A DNA stretch of 41,937 nt from a bacterium. GTDB taxonomy: Bacteria; Patescibacteriota; Minisyncoccia; Phycocordibacterales; UBA2100. The position numbers were made by a program, and so were the translations under genes. The DNA lies in NCBI GenBank assembly GCA_030674455.1, contig JAUSGQ010000027.1, forward strand, positions 82,786 through 124,722. The letters run 5' to 3'. The notes under the pieces are model-generated. The model searched no databases. It was not told where the DNA came from and saw only the letters and a program-made list of their open reading frames with translations. This document shows positions 6,882 through 41,651 of the stretch, one piece after another. Each line of letters begins with the position of its first letter. The first letter of the stretch is position 1.

Positions 6882-7469
6882 GTGGACATAGAACGGCCAA
6901 AGTCAATTCAGCCGATACCCGCGCACGCAAAGCGGGTCTTTAAAGGGCAGATTTTTGATGTGTATCAATGGGAGCAAGAAATGTTCGACGGCACCATCGA
7001 AACATTTGAAAAGCTGAAACGCCCCGACACCGTCGTCGTATTTCCCGTGCTTCCGGATGGCAAGATTATTTTGACGGAGCAGGAACAGCCGGGCAAGGAG
7101 TCTTTCATTGGTGCCACAGGCGGAAGAGTCGATGAAGGAGAGGGAATACTTGACGCCGCAAAACGGGAGCTTCTTGAAGAAAGCGGATATGAAGCGGAGA
7201 AATATATTTTATGGAAAGCGGAACAACTCGTCGGAAAAATCGATTGGGCAATCTATGTCTTTGTAGCGAAAGGTTTGAAGCAGGTCGCGGAGCTTAATCT
7301 CGACCCCGGTGAAAAAGTAACTCTCAAACCGGTAACATTCGATGAATTTATAGAAATGGGCACGAACGAACGGTTTAGTGAGAAATCAATTGCGCATAAA
7401 CTGCATGAAGCAAAATTATCTCCGGAAAAGAAAGAAGAACTACGAGATTTATTGAGTCCGGAGATTTAG
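6882..7469 (+). CDS. NUDIX hydrolase (ADP-ribose pyrophosphatase-like)
   Basis: Nudix box GGRVDEGEGILDAAKRELLEESG; GTG start with TGATATAAT 6 nt upstream. Confidence 0.85.
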   Translation: MDIERPKSIQPIPAHAKRVFKGQIFDVYQWEQEMFDGTIETFEKLKRPDTVVVFPVLPDGKIILTEQEQPGKESFIGATGGRVDEGEGILDAAKRELLEESGYEAEKYILWKAEQLVGKIDWAIYVFVAKGLKQVAELNLDPGEKVTLKPVTFDEFIEMGTNERFSEKSIAHKLHEAKLSPEKKEELRDLLSPEI

Positions 7470-7483
7470 AACTAGAGGTTTCA

Positions 7484-7527
7484 AGTATTGCTTTAGCAAA
7501 TGCGGCCGCATTTGCTAAAGCAATACT
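7484..7527. repeat. Perfect 44-bp palindrome AGTATTGCTTTAGCAAATGCGG/CCGCATTTGCTAAAGCAATACT, 3' side of PaaX-like gene 1
   Basis: Read directly; 22-nt arms, no mismatch, abuts the stop codon of the 7529-8101 gene. Confidence 0.97.
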
Positions 7528-7528
7528 C

Positions 7529-8101
7529 TTATTCGCGCAACTTAAACAGTTTTTTCAATCGATCTTCATCCTCGATTCGCTCCAAAACTCCGTACAATAT
7601 GTATTGCGAAAGCCGGGATTCCTCTTTGAGTAAACGCACGAGTTCTTCACATTCGTGCGGGAATACCCACACGCTCTGTTGAAGTTGGACAAAACCGGCC
7701 GCCTTAAGAATACCTCTGACTCTATTTCGCAGTGGCGCGTATTTCTCCGGAATATCAAAAATCGCAATTCGCCACTTTCTATCCCATGCACTCGTCTTTA
7801 GTAACTTGAGCGTAGCGAGGGCTATACCGCCGAGGGCGTTATTGCCATAATGCGTGATTGAGAGCCGTTCCCCGCGTTCCTGCACAAAGTTACTCTCTAT
7901 TAATCGCTCTATGGCGATCTTACGCCGATGACGATAACTCGCACGCTCGCGCGCAAGTTTGTAAAAGTGCCTAGTTGATCGGCCCGAGAGAAGGAAACTG
8001 TACAAGAGATCGCCAAACGTCAGTTCGTCCAATATATCCCTTTCTATCGAGCCGAGTCCTCTGGTGCGTTTATGAGGTCGTTTTGCACTGTACTGCGCCA
8101 T
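7529..8101 (-). CDS. PaaX-like / Cas2-like-fold regulator (gene 1)
   Basis: From MAQYSAKRPHKR (ATG at 8101): winged-helix-like N-terminus, then WDRKWRIAIFDIPEKYAPLRNRVRGILKAAGFVQLQQSVWVFPHECEELVRLLKEE typical of the PaaX Cas2-like domain. Confidence 0.8.
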   Translation of the reverse strand: MAQYSAKRPHKRTRGLGSIERDILDELTFGDLLYSFLLSGRSTRHFYKLARERASYRHRRKIAIERLIESNFVQERGERLSITHYGNNALGGIALATLKLLKTSAWDRKWRIAIFDIPEKYAPLRNRVRGILKAAGFVQLQQSVWVFPHECEELVRLLKEESRLSQYILYGVLERIEDEDRLKKLFKLRE

Positions 8102-8110
8102 ATTGATGGT

Positions 8111-8148
8111 ATTACTGTAGCAAATGCGGCCGCATCGGCAAGAGCAAT
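8111..8148. repeat. Imperfect 38-bp palindrome, 5' side of PaaX-like gene 1
   Basis: ATTACTGTAGCAAATGCGG / CCGCATCGGCAAGAGCAAT; left arm matches the 3' palindrome arm (ATTGCTTTAGCAAATGCGG) at 17 of 19 positions. Confidence 0.9.
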
Positions 8149-8212
8149 ATGTACAATTCTGGGAAATAGGAGAAACGGTATCTATCCGGTGCGGAAGTGG
8201 TAATATTTTTGC

Positions 8213-8725
8213 GTGCATCCAATAACAATAATACGGGACGCGGACATCGGGTCGCTTACTCCGCCTCCCAATGCGTACAGAGAGCGCGAATCGGCCCGAG
8301 CCGTTGTTTTTAATGACGATGGCAAAATTGCCATTCTATTTGCATCAAAAAAGAATTATCACAAACTGCCAGGCGGCGGCGTGGAAGAGGGAGAGGATTT
8401 GAATGCCGCGCTGGTCCGCGAGCTTCGCGAAGAAATTGGATGCGCAATCAAGAACCCTAGGGAGTTTGCGATGATTGAAGAGTACCGCAATAAGCAGACA
8501 CTGCATCATATTGCACATTGTTTTCTTGCAGAACTCGAGGGAGAAGTGGGGACTACGCGCATGGATGAAAGTGAGATTGCCGACGGTTTTACCACTGAAT
8601 GGATGAATCTCTCCGATGCCATTGCGAAGATTGCCGGCGAAACGGCCATAGAGAGTTACGAAGGAAAATTCATTCGTCTGCGAGAACTCGCTTTTTTGAA
8701 AGAAGCGGCGCATATAATTGCATAG
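8213..8725 (+). CDS. NUDIX hydrolase
   Basis: Nudix box GGGVEEGEDLNAALVRELREEIG. Confidence 0.88.
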   Translation: MHPITIIRDADIGSLTPPPNAYRERESARAVVFNDDGKIAILFASKKNYHKLPGGGVEEGEDLNAALVRELREEIGCAIKNPREFAMIEEYRNKQTLHHIAHCFLAELEGEVGTTRMDESEIADGFTTEWMNLSDAIAKIAGETAIESYEGKFIRLRELAFLKEAAHIIA

Positions 8726-14644: not shown

Positions 14645-15574
14645 ATGAGCGCGTGCGAAACGATAGAAATTGTTACGCCTAAGAAAGTTTTGCTCAATGG
14701 TTTGTGGTTCGGCCCCTCCTTCGCCAAGGCTTCGAAGGGCAAGCCTTCAAAACCGAAGAAGGTTATTATCTGGATACACGGGCTCGGGAGTTCGGCTTTC
14801 AGTAAATTGGCAATAGTAGAGAAATTGAAAGATAAGAATACGGCGGTAATAACTTTTAATAATAGAGGGCATGACAAAGTGAGCAGGATTGCTTTCACGG
14901 ACGAGAAAAGAAGCGCAAATCAGACACTTGGAGGAAGTGCGCATGAAGTATTCGAGGATTGCGTCGACGATATTCAGGGCGCAATTAATTTTCTAAAAAA
15001 GGCAGGAATAAAAAATATTTATCTCGCCGGACATTCGACTGGATGCCAGAAATCAATATATTGGGCGAGCAGGAAAGGGGCTCGGGGCCTGCCTGCGTCG
15101 CGGACGCGACAGGCAGGCGTGAAAGGAATTATTTTACTCGCTCCAATTAGCGACTATTCTGCGGAGATGCATTTGAAAGGTAAGAATGTGATTGCGCGCG
15201 CGGCTGCGGCCGCGCGCGCCCTTCTCGCGCGAAAAAAACCGCGCGCGCTTTTGCCCGAATCTCTGTGGCCTGAACCCATAGATGCGCAGAGATTCATTTC
15301 CCTATACACGCCGGACAGCGCGGAAGAAATGTTCACCTACGCTCAACCTAAGAAAATCCCGCGCTTATTGCAATCGGTCAAACTTCCCATATTTGCGCTT
15401 CTCGCAGATGAAGACGAATTTGCAGACCGGCCGGCGGTTGAAATTGCTGAATGGTTCGAACGGAACACCGACGCGAACCTCGAGACGCTTATCGTCCCAA
15501 GAGCAACCCACGGCTTTCGCGGCAAAGAGCTCCAGGTATCAGACGCGATCAAAACTTGGCTTTCCGAGCGCTAG
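14645..15574 (+). CDS. Alpha/beta hydrolase (serine hydrolase)
   Basis: VIIWIHGLGSSAFSK, NNRGHDKVS, IYLAGHSTGCQKSIYWAS nucleophile elbow, LLADEDEF, ATHGF. Confidence 0.85.
   Translation: MSACETIEIVTPKKVLLNGLWFGPSFAKASKGKPSKPKKVIIWIHGLGSSAFSKLAIVEKLKDKNTAVITFNNRGHDKVSRIAFTDEKRSANQTLGGSAHEVFEDCVDDIQGAINFLKKAGIKNIYLAGHSTGCQKSIYWASRKGARGLPASRTRQAGVKGIILLAPISDYSAEMHLKGKNVIARAAAAARALLARKKPRALLPESLWPEPIDAQRFISLYTPDSAEEMFTYAQPKKIPRLLQSVKLPIFALLADEDEFADRPAVEIAEWFERNTDANLETLIVPRATHGFRGKELQVSDAIKTWLSER
15087..15118. repeat. Palindromic element inserted in frame inside the alpha/beta hydrolase ORF
   Basis: GCCTGCCTG-CGTCGCGGACGCGA-CAGGCAGGC, with inner stem GTCGC/GCGAC. Confidence 0.9.
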
Positions 15575-15653
15575 CAACATGCGTATCAGGGAAGTACTGT
15601 GTCTCATTCACCCGCTTCAATAACAGCCAGCTAGACAAGGACAATGACTGTAC

Positions 15654-15689
15654 TGTACATACTCCACGCGGTCGCGTAAAGTATGTACA
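15654..15689. repeat. Palindrome 5' of PaaX-like gene 2 (centre CGCGGTCGCG)
   Basis: TGTACATACT-CCACGCGGTCGCGTAA-AGTATGTACA; right arm contains the start codon at 15683. Confidence 0.95.
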
Positions 15690-16252
15690 TGGGAAAGTTA
15701 GAGACAGAGAATAGGAAACGGACAAAGAGAGATCGGCTGAAAAGAATAATCCTTGAGACAGCAAAGGCTGCCGGGTTTCTCAGCATGGCTCTGCTTCTTC
15801 CCAACGTTCTCGGAGCGATGATGAAAATGGGACTGGTCGCTTCGCCCCGGCAATTCAATGTAGTTGAAAGAGCCTCTAAGCGCCTCGTTAAAACCGGCTT
15901 ACTGGAATGGAAGAATAGTAAATTAAGATTAACGCAAAAAGGCGAAAGGGAATTGCGCAAACTTACACTTTTTGAAGACGCGCGGAAACGGACTCGAACG
16001 TGGGACAAGAAATGGCGCGTACTCATATTTGACATTCCTGAACGCAGAAAGAACTTGCGTCAGCGGATCCGCTATACTCTTCGCGCCATCGGTTTTGTGA
16101 GATTACAGAATAGCGTGTGGGTATATCCGTACGACTGCGAAGATCTCATCACACTGCTTAAGGCGGATTTTCATGTAGGCGACGACATGCTGTATATGAT
16201 CGTTGATGCTATAGAACGTGATGAAAAAATGCGTATCCATTTTGGCATCTAG
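15683..16252 (+). CDS. PaaX-like / Cas2-like-fold regulator (gene 2)
   Basis: WDKKWRVLIFDIPERRKNLRQRIRYTLRAIGFVRLQNSVWVYPYDCEDLITLLKAD aligns directly with gene 1. Confidence 0.82.
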   Translation: MYMGKLETENRKRTKRDRLKRIILETAKAAGFLSMALLLPNVLGAMMKMGLVASPRQFNVVERASKRLVKTGLLEWKNSKLRLTQKGERELRKLTLFEDARKRTRTWDKKWRVLIFDIPERRKNLRQRIRYTLRAIGFVRLQNSVWVYPYDCEDLITLLKADFHVGDDMLYMIVDAIERDEKMRIHFGI

Positions 16253-16297
16253 ATATGTAAGGGTTTGGGCATTGGGGCGGAACAGCCGCCACCACCT

Positions 16298-16335
16298 CTG
16301 TACATACATCAGGCGACCGCATGAAGTATGTACAG
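16298..16335. repeat. Palindrome 3' of PaaX-like gene 2, copy 1 (centre GGCGACCGCA)
   Basis: CTGTACATACATCA-GGCGACCGCA-TGAAGTATGTACAG, 14-nt arms, one mismatch. Confidence 0.95.
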
Positions 16336-16356
16336 ACAACAGCTGATATACTCTTT

Positions 16357-16390
16357 GTACTTACTTCAAGCGACCGCATGAAGTAAGTAC
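16357..16390. repeat. Palindrome 3' of PaaX-like gene 2, copy 2 (centre AGCGACCGCA)
   Basis: GTACTTACTTCA-AGCGACCGCA-TGAAGTAAGTAC, perfect 12-nt arms. Confidence 0.95.
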
Positions 16391-16484: not shown

Positions 16485-16607
16485 ATCCCGTTAGAAGTCG
16501 CGGAAGGTGCAACTGATGCGGAGGTCACATATACAATGCATACGCGTCGAATAATTAACAGCGATAATAGTAGGTCGGAAGCGCAAGCTTCCTACTTCTA
16601 ACGGGAT
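16485..16607 (+). promoter_or_regulatory. Putative structured leader of atpB: 14-bp inverted repeat closing on the atpB start codon
   Basis: ATCCCGTTAGAAGT (16485-16498) and ACTTCTAACGGGAT (16594-16607) are perfect reverse complements; atpB ATG is 16606-16608; inner GGAAGC-GCAA-GCTTCC tetraloop hairpin. Confidence 0.65.
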
Positions 16608-17346
16608 GGAACCATCGGGCATTCATGTCGCGCTTGCGCCGGAAGTAATCGGTAACTTATGGGGGCTTCCCATCACCAACACTCTGCTCATGAGCTGGGC
16701 GGTGATTATTGTGCTCGGAACTCTGGCGTATTTTATGGGGAGGAATGTCAAACTGATACCGAGCCGTTTTCAGACTCTTCTTGAAGGACTTTTCAGCTTC
16801 GTCTACGATTACATCTCGGAAACGCTTGAAAGCAGGGACATGGCGAGAAAATTCTTTCCTCTTCTTCTCACGATATTTCTCTTTGTATTTACTGCTAACA
16901 TGCTGGAATTTACGCCCGGCATCGGAAGCGTTGGCATATATCACGGCGAGGAATTTCTGCCGCTTTTTAGAAGCGCCAACACTGATCTGAACGCGACGCT
17001 CGCGCTGGCGATAATCTCTTTTTTCGTGATTGAAGTAACCGGCATCCTTGCTATCGGATTTTTGAAATACTCGCAGAAATTCTTTAATTTTCATTCAGGG
17101 ATGGGATTTGCCGTCGGCATTATTGAATTCTTTTCAGAATTGGCGCGGCTCGTTTCGTTCTCGTTCCGTCTCTTCGGAAATATTTTTGCGGGCGAAGTGC
17201 TCATTCTCGTCGTGAGTTTCTTCGTGCCGTATTTCTTGCCGGTGCCACTCATGCTGTTCGAGGTATTCGTCGGATTTATTCAGGCCGCGATTTTCGCGCT
17301 GCTGACCCTCTTCTTTATTAAGATCGCTATAATGGAACCGCACTAG
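16606..17346 (+). CDS. atpB: F-type ATP synthase subunit a
   Basis: FSELARLVSFSFRLFGNIFAGEVLILVVSF with the conserved Arg; first gene of ATP synthase operon. Confidence 0.95.
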   Translation: MEPSGIHVALAPEVIGNLWGLPITNTLLMSWAVIIVLGTLAYFMGRNVKLIPSRFQTLLEGLFSFVYDYISETLESRDMARKFFPLLLTIFLFVFTANMLEFTPGIGSVGIYHGEEFLPLFRSANTDLNATLALAIISFFVIEVTGILAIGFLKYSQKFFNFHSGMGFAVGIIEFFSELARLVSFSFRLFGNIFAGEVLILVVSFFVPYFLPVPLMLFEVFVGFIQAAIFALLTLFFIKIAIMEPH

Positions 17347-22396: not shown

Positions 22397-23767
<1,371 letters not shown>

Positions 23768-23768
23768 G

Positions 23769-24228
23769 TCCCAATCTGCAAATGATGCGAATGCTACGAA
23801 TGGCTACGAATATACGAGATTGCTCATTTGTAGTTATTTGTAGATTGGAATAAATTCGTAGATTGGAACACATATATGAGCGAAAAGACTTTTCATCTCA
23901 TCATCTCAAGCGTGGGCGAGACGCATTTTGACGGCGAGGCAGTTTCGGCGACTGTGCCCGGCTCGGAGGGAGAGCTTACCGTGCTTGCGCATCATGAACC
24001 GTTCGTCACCGCTCTGCGAACCGGCTCCATTGTCGTGCGTCTTCCGGGCGGAGAAACAAAAAAATTTCCAAATTCAAACGGCATTCTTGAATTTTCCGGC
24101 AACAAGGCAGTCGTACTACTGTAGAGTCCCAATCTGCAAATACATCCCAATCTACAAATATCTACGAATAAGGGATTCTTACATTTGTAGACATTCGTAG
24201 CATTCGTATCATTTGCAGATTGGAACTT
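23769..24228. repeat. Inverted AATCTGCAAATGAT/ATTTGTAGATTGG-type repeats bracketing atpC
   Basis: CAATCTGCAAATGATGCGAATGCTACGAATG near 23771 is the near reverse complement of CATTCGTAGCATTCGTATCATTTGCAGATTG near 24191-24221; additional partial copies at both sides. Confidence 0.8.
23876..24124 (+). CDS. atpC: F-type ATP synthase subunit epsilon, beta-sandwich domain only
   Basis: FHLIISSVGETHFDGEAVSATVPGSEGELTVLAHHEPFVTALRTGSIVVR...; 82 aa, no C-terminal helical domain. Confidence 0.9.
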   Translation: MSEKTFHLIISSVGETHFDGEAVSATVPGSEGELTVLAHHEPFVTALRTGSIVVRLPGGETKKFPNSNGILEFSGNKAVVLL

Positions 24229-24552
24229 ATGAAAAGATTTCAGAGGAAAATAGAAGATTTTACATGCGAACATTGTGGTGAAAAGATTATAGGCGATGGT
24301 TACACCAACCATTGCCCGCATTGTCTCTGGAGCAAGCATGTCGACGTAAATCCGGGCGACAGAGGAAGTGCATGCGGCGGCATGATGAAGCCGGTGCGTA
24401 TTGAAGGCACGGTTGCCGCATATTTCATCATTCATAAATGCATTAAATGCGGAGTTGAGCGCCGGAACATCTTTGGTAAGAAAGACAGTATTGAAGCGAT
24501 GCTTGATATTGCAAAAAATTCTGCTGACGAAATTGCGAAACGAGCGACATGA
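24229..24552 (+). CDS. RNHCP-domain zinc-ribbon protein
   Basis: FTCEHCGEKI...YTNHCPHCLWSKHVDVNPGDRGSACGGMMKPV and HKCIKCGVERRN. Confidence 0.85.
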   Translation: MKRFQRKIEDFTCEHCGEKIIGDGYTNHCPHCLWSKHVDVNPGDRGSACGGMMKPVRIEGTVAAYFIIHKCIKCGVERRNIFGKKDSIEAMLDIAKNSADEIAKRAT

Positions 24553-39014: not shown

Positions 39015-39176
39015 ACTCGGCGTAAATAAACTCACCATGGAGAGCTTTTGGCTTTGAAATGCCCTAGGGGATTTTTGCTTATTCAGATGCTCCGTATAAC
39101 TATATAAACAGTAGTTCTTTTGACAAACTATATAGTTCGGCGTGGTCGAGAACACCGAATATGGTATAATTCATTC

Positions 39177-39389
39177 ATGAGCCGAAATATAACGGGAGAC
39201 ATAGATAATCTTGCAAATATCATCGACGAGTCCCACGAGAATAAGTGGGTAGCAATTGCAGCAGATTATTCGAAGGTAATCGCGACTGCAACTACTTTAC
39301 GTGAAATCATGAGTATGGTATCAGACCCCGATGCGATATTTCACAGGGTATTGCCTCGCGGCGTTAGTTTTGTCGGACCATCTTGGTAA
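39177..39389 (+). CDS. DUF5678-like small protein
   Basis: MSRNITGDIDNLANIIDESHENKWVAIAADYSKVIATATTLREIMSMVSDPDAIFHRVLPRGVSFVGPSW; TATAAT 6 nt before ATG. Confidence 0.7.
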   Translation: MSRNITGDIDNLANIIDESHENKWVAIAADYSKVIATATTLREIMSMVSDPDAIFHRVLPRGVSFVGPSW

Positions 39390-39390
39390 T

Positions 39391-39814
39391 GTGAAATACG
39401 TCTACACAACCATTCCGGGCGAGAAAGACGTCAATGGCCGCCCCACGAAACGTCCTATTTTGAAGGTAGACCTTATTAAAGGAAGGAGACATTAAACGAA
39501 CATTCTTCGCGTTGATAGATTCAGGTGCGGATCAGATAACGATGCCCGCTTATATAGCGGAACTCTTTCGAATAGAAAAACAACGTGCGGACTCACGGCC
39601 CATGATGGGGATTTCCATGGAGCCCATTGCCGGATTCGTGGGTGAATTAACCATTCGTATCCGCGGGCAAGCCGAAACATTTGTAGCGCCAGTTGTTTTT
39701 GTCGACACGGAAATGCCAATCGTTTTGGGGCGCGAAGGATTCTTCGATAAATACAGAATAAAGTTTGAACAAGACCACGACACGTTCGAGATTACACCAG
39801 TATCGAAGCGGTGA
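39391..39814 (+). pseudogene. Retropepsin-like aspartyl protease, apparently frameshifted near 39480
   Basis: GTG-start frame: VKYVYTTIPGEKDVNGRPTKRPILKVDLIK, then the +1 frame: EGDIKRTFFALIDSGADQITMPAYIAELF...MPIVLGREGFFDKYRI. ALIDSGAD is the catalytic motif. Confidence 0.7.
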
Positions 39815-39862
39815 GAAACGTTTTGTAGTTGCTCAACAATATTGCTCTGTTGCGATAAAAAT

Positions 39863-39909
39863 CAGCAGGGGAGGAGATGTCAGCAGGGGAGGAGGCGTCA
39901 GGAACCTTT
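39863..39909. repeat. Direct repeat A, copy 2, preceded by an imperfect 18-bp tandem duplication
   Basis: CAGCAGGGGAGGAGATGT/CAGCAGGGGAGGAGGCGT then CAGGAACCTTT. Confidence 0.93.
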
Positions 39910-39914
39910 TCTCC

Positions 39915-39977
39915 ATATAGTTCGGCTACACGCCAATCGTAGGCACTCGATATCCACATTTTCTGCACAGGAAATCC
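39915..39977. repeat. Direct repeat B, copy 1
   Basis: ATATAGTTCGGCTACACGCCAATCGTAGGCACTCGATATCCACATTTTCTGCACAGGAAATCC, identical to 41361-41423. Confidence 0.97.
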
Positions 39978-40065
39978 TCCTTCTTGACGTGTTCTTGCTA
40001 TTTTTGGGCTTTAGTGCAGAATGTGGACTGGATACTAGGTTTAAGCTAGTTTCCGGTTCAATTAT

Positions 40066-40651
40066 GGAAAAAGGTGACTACATGGAGTTGTTGTTACGCT
40101 CCGCAAATACCGTCTTTAGCGCCGGTGAGATTCTTTTATTGTGGGGACAGCCAGATAGCAAAGCTGCTCGCGCACGGATTAATTACTATGCAAAAAAAGG
40201 GAAACTCTATCGGGTTCGCAGAGGTCTCTACGCGAAAGATAAGAATTACAACAAGTTCGAGTTGGCTACGAAGATATTTACGCCGTCATACGTAAGCTTC
40301 GAAACTGTTCTCTTACAGGCGGGCATGATTTTCCAGTTCTACGGGCCTACCACGTTCGTCGCGTCGTACCTGAAGCGGGTGATTGAAGCTGACGGCACTT
40401 CCTACTCATATCGGAAGATAAAGAACGATATCCTCACTAATCACGCCGGAATCGAATTCAAGGATGGCTACTCGATCGCAACTCCGGAGCGTGCCTTTCT
40501 GGACATTCTGTACGCTTATAAAGATTATCACTTCGATAACCTGAACCCGCTTAATTGGGAAAAGGTACAGAGCCTCCTGCCAATCTATGGCGGTAACAAG
40601 CGTATGGAGAAGTTAGTGAAACGCCACCGTGAGTCAGCGAGCAAAACATAA
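40066..40651 (+). CDS. AbiEi-family antitoxin, second pair
   Basis: From MEKGDYMELLLRSANTVFSAGEILLLWGQPDSKAARARINYYAKKGKLYRVRRGLYAKDKNYNKFELATKIFTPSYVSFETVLLQAG...YSIATPERAFLDILY. Confidence 0.87.
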
Positions 40652-40653
40652 TT

Positions 40654-41343
40654 ATGTCACTTGATACCGCGGCACATAGAAATATATTGCTACAAATCCT
40701 AAAGGATATTTATACCGATAGCACCATCGGTCCTATCCTCGGCTTCAAAGGCGGGACGGCGGCGTATCTTTTCTACACGCTAAACCGTTTCTCGATGGAC
40801 CTCGATTTTGACTTGTTGGATATTGGGAAGCAGGACTATGTATTCGAGCGTGTAAAGAAAATCCTTGCGGCTTACGGTGAGCTGAAACAACTCGACAAGA
40901 AGCATCACACGCTCTTTTATCTTCTCTCTTACGAACACAAAATCGCCGGGGCTAGGAATATAAAAATCGAGATAAATCTTCGCGATTTCGGTTCGAAATA
41001 CGAGGTTCGGCCGCCATATCTCGGTATTTCAATGAAAGTCATGACTCCGGCAGACATGTTCGCCCACAAGCTGGTGGCAATGACCGAGCGTACTACTAAC
41101 CGCGATGTATTCGACGTGCATTTCTTTCTCAAGAACAACTGGCCTATCAACGAAGAAATAATAAAGCTGCGCACAGAGATGTCGCTAAAAGATTTTCTCA
41201 AGAAATGCGTTCAGGATCTCGAGGCACGGGAACACGACGACATGCTCGGCGGCATGGGAGAGCTGCTTGATGAGAAGCAAAAAGCATGGGTGAAAACCAA
41301 TTTGAGAACTGACACGATTTTTTTGCTCAAGCTTAGACTGTAG
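40654..41343 (+). CDS. AbiEii-family nucleotidyltransferase toxin, second pair
   Basis: LGFKGGTAAYLFYTLNRFSMDLDFDLL; 2 nt after AbiEi stop. Confidence 0.9.
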   Translation: MSLDTAAHRNILLQILKDIYTDSTIGPILGFKGGTAAYLFYTLNRFSMDLDFDLLDIGKQDYVFERVKKILAAYGELKQLDKKHHTLFYLLSYEHKIAGARNIKIEINLRDFGSKYEVRPPYLGISMKVMTPADMFAHKLVAMTERTTNRDVFDVHFFLKNNWPINEEIIKLRTEMSLKDFLKKCVQDLEAREHDDMLGGMGELLDEKQKAWVKTNLRTDTIFLLKLRL

Positions 41344-41360
41344 CTCTTTGGACAAACTAT

Positions 41361-41423
41361 ATATAGTTCGGCTACACGCCAATCGTAGGCACTCGATATC
41401 CACATTTTCTGCACAGGAAATCC
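41361..41423. repeat. Direct repeat B, copy 2
   Basis: 63 nt identical to 39915-39977. Confidence 0.97.
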
Positions 41424-41651
41424 CCCCTTCATGATGCTTGACAGAGAATTAGGGAAGCGTATGTTTCGAACTGGCCTAGCCGTCTACAGGCGAATCAGCA
41501 GATTTCGTGGCTTGGCCTGCCGATGCCAAACTCATCGGCCTCTCTCCGCCAGGCCAACCATAAAAATCGTACGTATTGGCTTGTCGAGGTCCGTTTATCA
41601 ATTATCAAGTGTTTCCCTAATTAATAAAAGGTTTTAATAATCAAAATTTGT

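Follow-up and report, generated by a model that had tools for sequence, protein, structure and literature searches.

A small gene for a PaaX-like protein that lies between two copies of one long palindrome raises the question of whether it is an ordinary autoregulated repressor gene or a mobile unit made up of the gene and its palindromes. We addressed this question in a stretch of 41,937 nucleotides of a Patescibacteria genome (hereafter the window), which contains two such units. The host genome measures 1.25 Mb, and its named relatives are Candidatus Kaiserbacteria. All genomes used here are metagenome assemblies, one per species, and start codons were set by alignment to homologues.

Table 1 Positions of the two units and of their neighbouring genes in the window (G008 is Candidatus Kaiserbacteria RIFCSPHIGHO2_02_FULL_49_16).
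Feature	Position	Strand	Remark
Unit 1, whole element, palindrome to palindrome	7484..8149	-	Aligns with its paralogue L002 only inside
Unit 1 gene (P0001), winged-helix + Cas2-like (PaaX_M)	7529..8101	-	190 aa
Unit 1, 3′ palindrome	7484..7527		Perfect, 44 bp
Unit 1, 5′ palindrome	8109..8149		Imperfect copy close to the start codon
Left neighbour of unit 1, Nudix-type gene	6882..7469	+	5 bp from right neighbour in G008
Right neighbour of unit 1, Nudix-type gene	8213..8725	+	
Unit 2, whole element	15653..16390	+	Three palindromes
Unit 2 gene	15689..16252	+	187 aa from conserved MGxxE start; alternative ATG 15683 = P0002
Unit 2, 5′ palindrome	15654..15689		Ends on the start codon
Unit 2, 3′ palindrome	16297..16336		
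Unit 2, extra tandem copy of the palindrome	16357..16390		
Left neighbour of unit 2, alpha/beta hydrolase-like gene	14645..15574	+	
Right neighbour of unit 2, ATP synthase subunit a (atpB)	16606..17346	+	

The initial annotation, made from the letters alone, had described unit 1 as a 190-codon PaaX-like gene with a perfect 44-bp palindrome one base past its stop codon and a degenerate copy of this palindrome upstream of its ATG, and each of these elements was recovered. The gene reads along the minus strand from 8101 to 7529. The two arms of the 3′ palindrome (7484–7505 and 7506–7527) are 22 nt each and 100% complementary, and the 5′ palindrome, which is 85% identical to the 3′ copy and 78% self-complementary, has its inner edge 7–8 bp upstream of the ATG. 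When the 20-nt core of the palindrome was searched for with up to 3 mismatches, only the 5′ and 3′ copies were found in the window and none in 100 shuffles. Unit 2, whose protein is 38% identical to that of unit 1, is laid out in the same way, its palindrome having another sequence, and a third palindrome lies ~60 bp beyond its 3′ palindrome.

Other repeats are present in the window. A segment of ~470 bp at 23762–24232 resembles a further repeat element that is not related to the units; it encloses an 82-aa ORF, and its 56-nt inverted ends (88%) consist of short CTACGAAT/CAAATCTAC words. A tandem duplication at 39105–41426 can be recognised from a direct repeat of 66 bp (98%) and from a promoter-like repeat of 30 bp.

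The host genome encodes 14 homologous genes, and the number of copies per genome ranged from 0 to 14 among 52 congeneric genomes. From 123 loci we drew 107 distinct units, 94 of which had matched 5′ and 3′ palindromes above the 99th percentile of the controls (795 other ORFs of the same loci), with weaker pairs in most of the remaining units. The same kind of pair was found in 9 of 11 loci of other Patescibacteria families, and the protein is present in 48 of the 146 Patescibacteria genomes sampled over the phylum. No unit was found in collections of viral contigs, phages and plasmids.

The palindromes of the units are loop-free dyads of ~38–46 bp that are alike within a unit and different between units. 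Over 120 units, the 5′ and 3′ palindromes of one unit had 31.9 of their 40 central nucleotides in common, as against 15.8 of 40 with those of other units and a permutation maximum of 17.1 of 40. Self-complementarity reaches ~19 nt either side of the centre, with peaks in the core (±4) and in the outer arms (12–19 nt). The similarity of the palindromes also followed that of the proteins (Mantel r 0.53, permutation maximum 0.11). Two tests proposed in the initial annotation, on palindromes at both sides of homologues and on their agreement with the protein clade, thus came out in favour of its reading in the congeneric units and, for the first, in the distant families.

The closest relative of unit 1 (L002) lies in the same genome between unrelated flanks and encodes a protein of 79% amino acid identity. 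The DNA of the two units can be aligned from −43 of the ATG to +38 past the stop codon, the alignment ending inside both palindromes. Similarly, in 141 pairs of units without a nucleotide-level match of their flanks, identity was 0.35–0.71 inside the palindromes and 0.26–0.31, which is the random level, more than ~22 nt outward of the palindrome centres. As read from these alignments, the unit ends at its palindromes.

Empty sites, which the initial annotation had proposed to look for, are present in relatives for both units of the window. The Nudix pair flanking unit 1 is 743 bp apart in the window and 5 bp apart in G008, a genome assigned to its named Kaiserbacteria entry through the identical flanks of L016 and L045. 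For unit 2, the order of ahcY, the hydrolase gene and atpB is kept in the fetched relatives, and among those keeping both the hydrolase gene and atpB, only the host and G008 have a unit between them; the longer hydrolase–atpB gaps examined in five other genomes contain unrelated ORFs. A further site, between rpsG and the next gene (gene names inferred from the translated ends), is occupied by a unit in some Kaiserbacteria and by none in other genomes. Units are gained or lost between conserved genes, and what marks a mobile element, namely presence or absence at orthologous sites together with copies at unrelated loci, was observed.

Species that are 75–85% alike have several units in common positions, which implies that movement is rare and that vertical inheritance has kept some units in place for a long time. 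As judged from the occupied and empty sites compared here, movement is real over this time scale and not frequent. The flanks were compared between species 70–85% alike, so that the junctions are not base-precise, and no base-precise empty site was obtained among the compared relatives. No signal of a target-site duplication was seen (own 3.17 versus other 2.86 nt).

Two arrangements between species were noted in passing. One intergenic slot holds units of different clades (L012 and L095) in two species, and the two units point in opposite directions. In the genome G043, the left flank of a unit (L152) is common to one unit of the host genome (G000) and its right flank to another (L009, L010), which suggests that units may act as recombination sites.

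The palindromes also occur without the gene. Pattern searches, which give minimum numbers, detected at least 12 solo palindromes in intergenic DNA of the host genome, seven of which are of the unit-1 type. The core of the unit-1 palindrome is found at 11 places of this genome, four in the two related units L001 and L002 and seven alone, where the reversed-pattern control gave 0. All seven solo copies are intergenic, 36–48 bp long and mostly perfect, and none has a homologous gene nearby. The other solo copies, likewise intergenic, belong to unit 2 (one) and L014 (one), with further ones for L004 and L005. A palindrome scan of a 302-kb genome sample that included the window returned 43 palindromes versus 1 in shuffles. 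A four-copy match to the core in genome G007 was discarded as part of a longer unrelated repeat, and a base-precise empty site sought for the solo palindrome at the gene end in L190 was abandoned because relatives of ~80% identity could not be aligned past the stop codon. In G008, the slot of a solo unit-1 palindrome of the host holds a different perfect palindrome, ACTCATACTTATAATGCCCGACCGGGCATTATAAGTATGAGT (L211).

The protein of unit 1 matches the Cas2-like domain PaaX_M (PF20803, E=3e-18), as the initial annotation had proposed (the two scores of this search were 66 and 74 bits, against a cut-off of 24), and misses the full-length PaaX equivalog TIGR02277 (26 bits for unit 1, and 34, versus 264.55). 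The AlphaFold2 monomer consists of a winged helix and a ferredoxin-like domain (pLDDT 80.5, pTM 0.54). Among solved structures, E. coli PaaX and Rv0674 come closest to it in fold, followed by a halophilic RosR regulator and Cas2 proteins. No Pfam match to the Y1/HuH transposase domain PF01797 was obtained, and an HuH motif was found in 0 of 131 units (best His column 34%).

Nuclease activity varies among Cas2-fold proteins. In the 131 units, D116, R125, G136, S143 and P148 are conserved at 100% and Q141 at 99%. D116 aligns with the Cas2 Asp, and D116, Q141 and S143 fall on the YDIT and QYSVF motifs of Sso Cas2, the Cas2-type Asp not being conserved in two solved PaaX-type proteins. This Asp has been reported as important for catalysis in Cas2/VapD proteins, where an Asp pair is the proposed catalytic site (PMC10491678). 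Its invariance makes a nuclease activity of the unit proteins plausible. Cas1 is absent from the host genome and was found in 2 of the 52 genomes of the genus.

These proteins might still be ordinary autoregulated PaaX-type repressors, an explanation that we regard as unlikely. The palindromes would then be operators, the 3′ copy serving for looping or to block read-through, the solo copies would make up a small regulon, and the genes would have spread by duplication. The pair of a winged helix and a Cas2-like domain is indeed common to PaaX repressors, the 5′ palindrome is most often centred 17–18 nt ahead of the start codon, and 103 of 123 units have a TANNNT element at −20 to −2, versus 58 of 123 in the 3′ counterpart. 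The initial annotation had held that autoregulation fits the upstream site and not the 3′ copy; the first part probably stands, as the start region lies inside the 5′ palindrome. Autoregulation by the 5′ palindrome is thus probably real too, to judge from the position of this copy, and the constraint of promoter and start would make it the less perfect one, whereas the 3′ and solo copies, which lack the start-region constraint, are more often perfect. The repressor explanation accounts poorly for the solo copies, most of which, like the 3′ copy, are near-perfect, and which are placed unlike the unit's own operator: they lie ~48–378 bp from start codons, with one 4 bp from a stop codon and one between convergent genes, and the last two are unexplained by a regulon. 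Copies of the gene at unrelated loci whose likeness stops at the palindromes, the variation from 0 to 14 copies per genome with empty sites, and the invariant Cas2-type Asp also argue against it.

A more doubtful possibility is that Y1/RAYT transposases mobilise the units in trans, the PaaX-like gene being a passenger or a repressor of mobility. The host genome contains 16 Y1_Tnp genes, several of which are bracketed by palindromes, and the numbers of units and Y1_Tnp genes per genome are moderately correlated (rho 0.46), which makes an enzyme acting in trans possible. However, the palindromes of the RAYT-like genes match none of the host unit palindromes (20/40 or less), those of the units covary with the PaaX-like protein and show no enrichment of a GT(A/G)G head, and in two of the genomes that contain units no Y1 gene was detected. 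Two weak palindrome matches (24/40) were seen near an IS200-type gene. Several of the RAYT-like genes (~230 aa) have short hairpins of their own on either side, and these Y1_Tnp genes with flanking hairpins (L233–L245 in the host genome, G000) belong to several families. REP-like palindromes of many families are thus present in this small genome. At one of these loci (L245, G000:C19, near 52870), two solo palindromes of unit style with other cores lie beside an IS200-type transposase gene.

It is very improbable that the palindromes serve a regulator gene as bidirectional transcription terminators or insulators. They can form RNA stem-loops and sit at gene borders, but the 5′ copy covers the start region, each unit has its own sequence with 5′ and 3′ copies that match, and T runs are absent beyond the 3′ palindrome. 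A match to an ordinary terminator alone would, by the initial annotation, have spoken against a mobile unit; positions 7400–8300 contain no terminator-like site.

A selfish unit is the most economical way to account at once for the bracketing, the matching within each unit, the empty sites and the solo copies. We therefore lean towards a REP-like selfish element with a single gene, which codes for a winged-helix and Cas2-like protein, and we infer that the units transpose. In such an element, a dimer in which two winged helices are joined by the Cas2-like ferredoxin domain would recognise the core and the outer arms of the palindrome. At the 5′ copy, the dimer would repress its own promoter inside the palindrome, from which a leaderless mRNA would probably be made. 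At both copies and at the solo copies, the protein may mark or cut the DNA via its invariant Cas2-type Asp, and the unit or a lone palindrome would be copied into new intergenic places, in all likelihood seldom and by means of host repair or replication enzymes.

A wider proposal, which we put forward tentatively, is that these units represent mobile elements of a new class, whose winged-helix/Cas2-like protein would itself be the enzyme that recognises and processes the long dyad palindromes and copies its own gene and the solo palindromes. This would be an HuH-independent REP system across Patescibacteria and possibly a relative of the state ancestral to CRISPR Cas2 or to PaaX repressors.

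The current view ties REP palindromes to HuH/Y1 enzymes, and here the same genomic pattern is built on an unrelated Cas2-fold protein. The units offer a testable non-CRISPR role for Cas2-like proteins and explain why Cas2 or PaaX genes may be auto-annotated in genomes of this group that have no CRISPR. They also point to a widespread repeat system that shapes the intergenic DNA of very small genomes. The protein of this REP-like element is unrelated to RAYT and apparently undescribed: no description of such PaaX/Cas2-like units was found in the open-access papers searched, a set that leaves out most subscription journals and preprints.

Among known systems, the IS200/IS605 elements are likewise small, with one gene, palindromes close to either end and no long target duplication, but their protein belongs to another superfamily, and the palindromes of the units are outer borders that are the same at both ends. 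PaaX (E. coli PaaX, 8a39; TIGR02277) has the same order of a winged helix followed by PaaX_M and is the best fold match, and operator binding is likely for the units as well. Unlike PaaX, the unit proteins are shorter (190 versus ~300 aa), score far below the equivalog cut-off and keep the Cas2-type Asp, and their genes are palindrome-bracketed and multicopy. With the Cas2/VapD-like nucleases (Sso Cas2, BPSL1038) they have in common the invariant Asp after strand 1 and the QxS motif, and Cas2 structures are among the top fold matches; they differ in being fused to a winged helix and in residing in a genome without Cas1.

The likeness in layout proposed by the initial annotation, that to RAYT/REP, was supported by the solo palindromes and further strengthened by the true RAYTs of the same genome, which carry different palindromes. 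As the RAYT unit, or REPtron (RAYT/TnpA-REP), is defined (PMC2817692, PMC8266576), one gene stands between two cognate palindromes, and solo palindromes of several families per genome are scattered in intergenic DNA, as is the case here. In contrast, RAYTs are HuH/Y1 proteins (PF01797) and the unit proteins combine a winged helix with a Cas2-like domain, the solo copies number around ten here instead of hundreds, and REPs have a GT(A/G)G head that the unit palindromes lack (no enrichment, with 3 and 11 of 123 versus 16 in the control stretches). With neither this head nor an HuH motif, the units have the architecture of RAYT/REP but not its protein.
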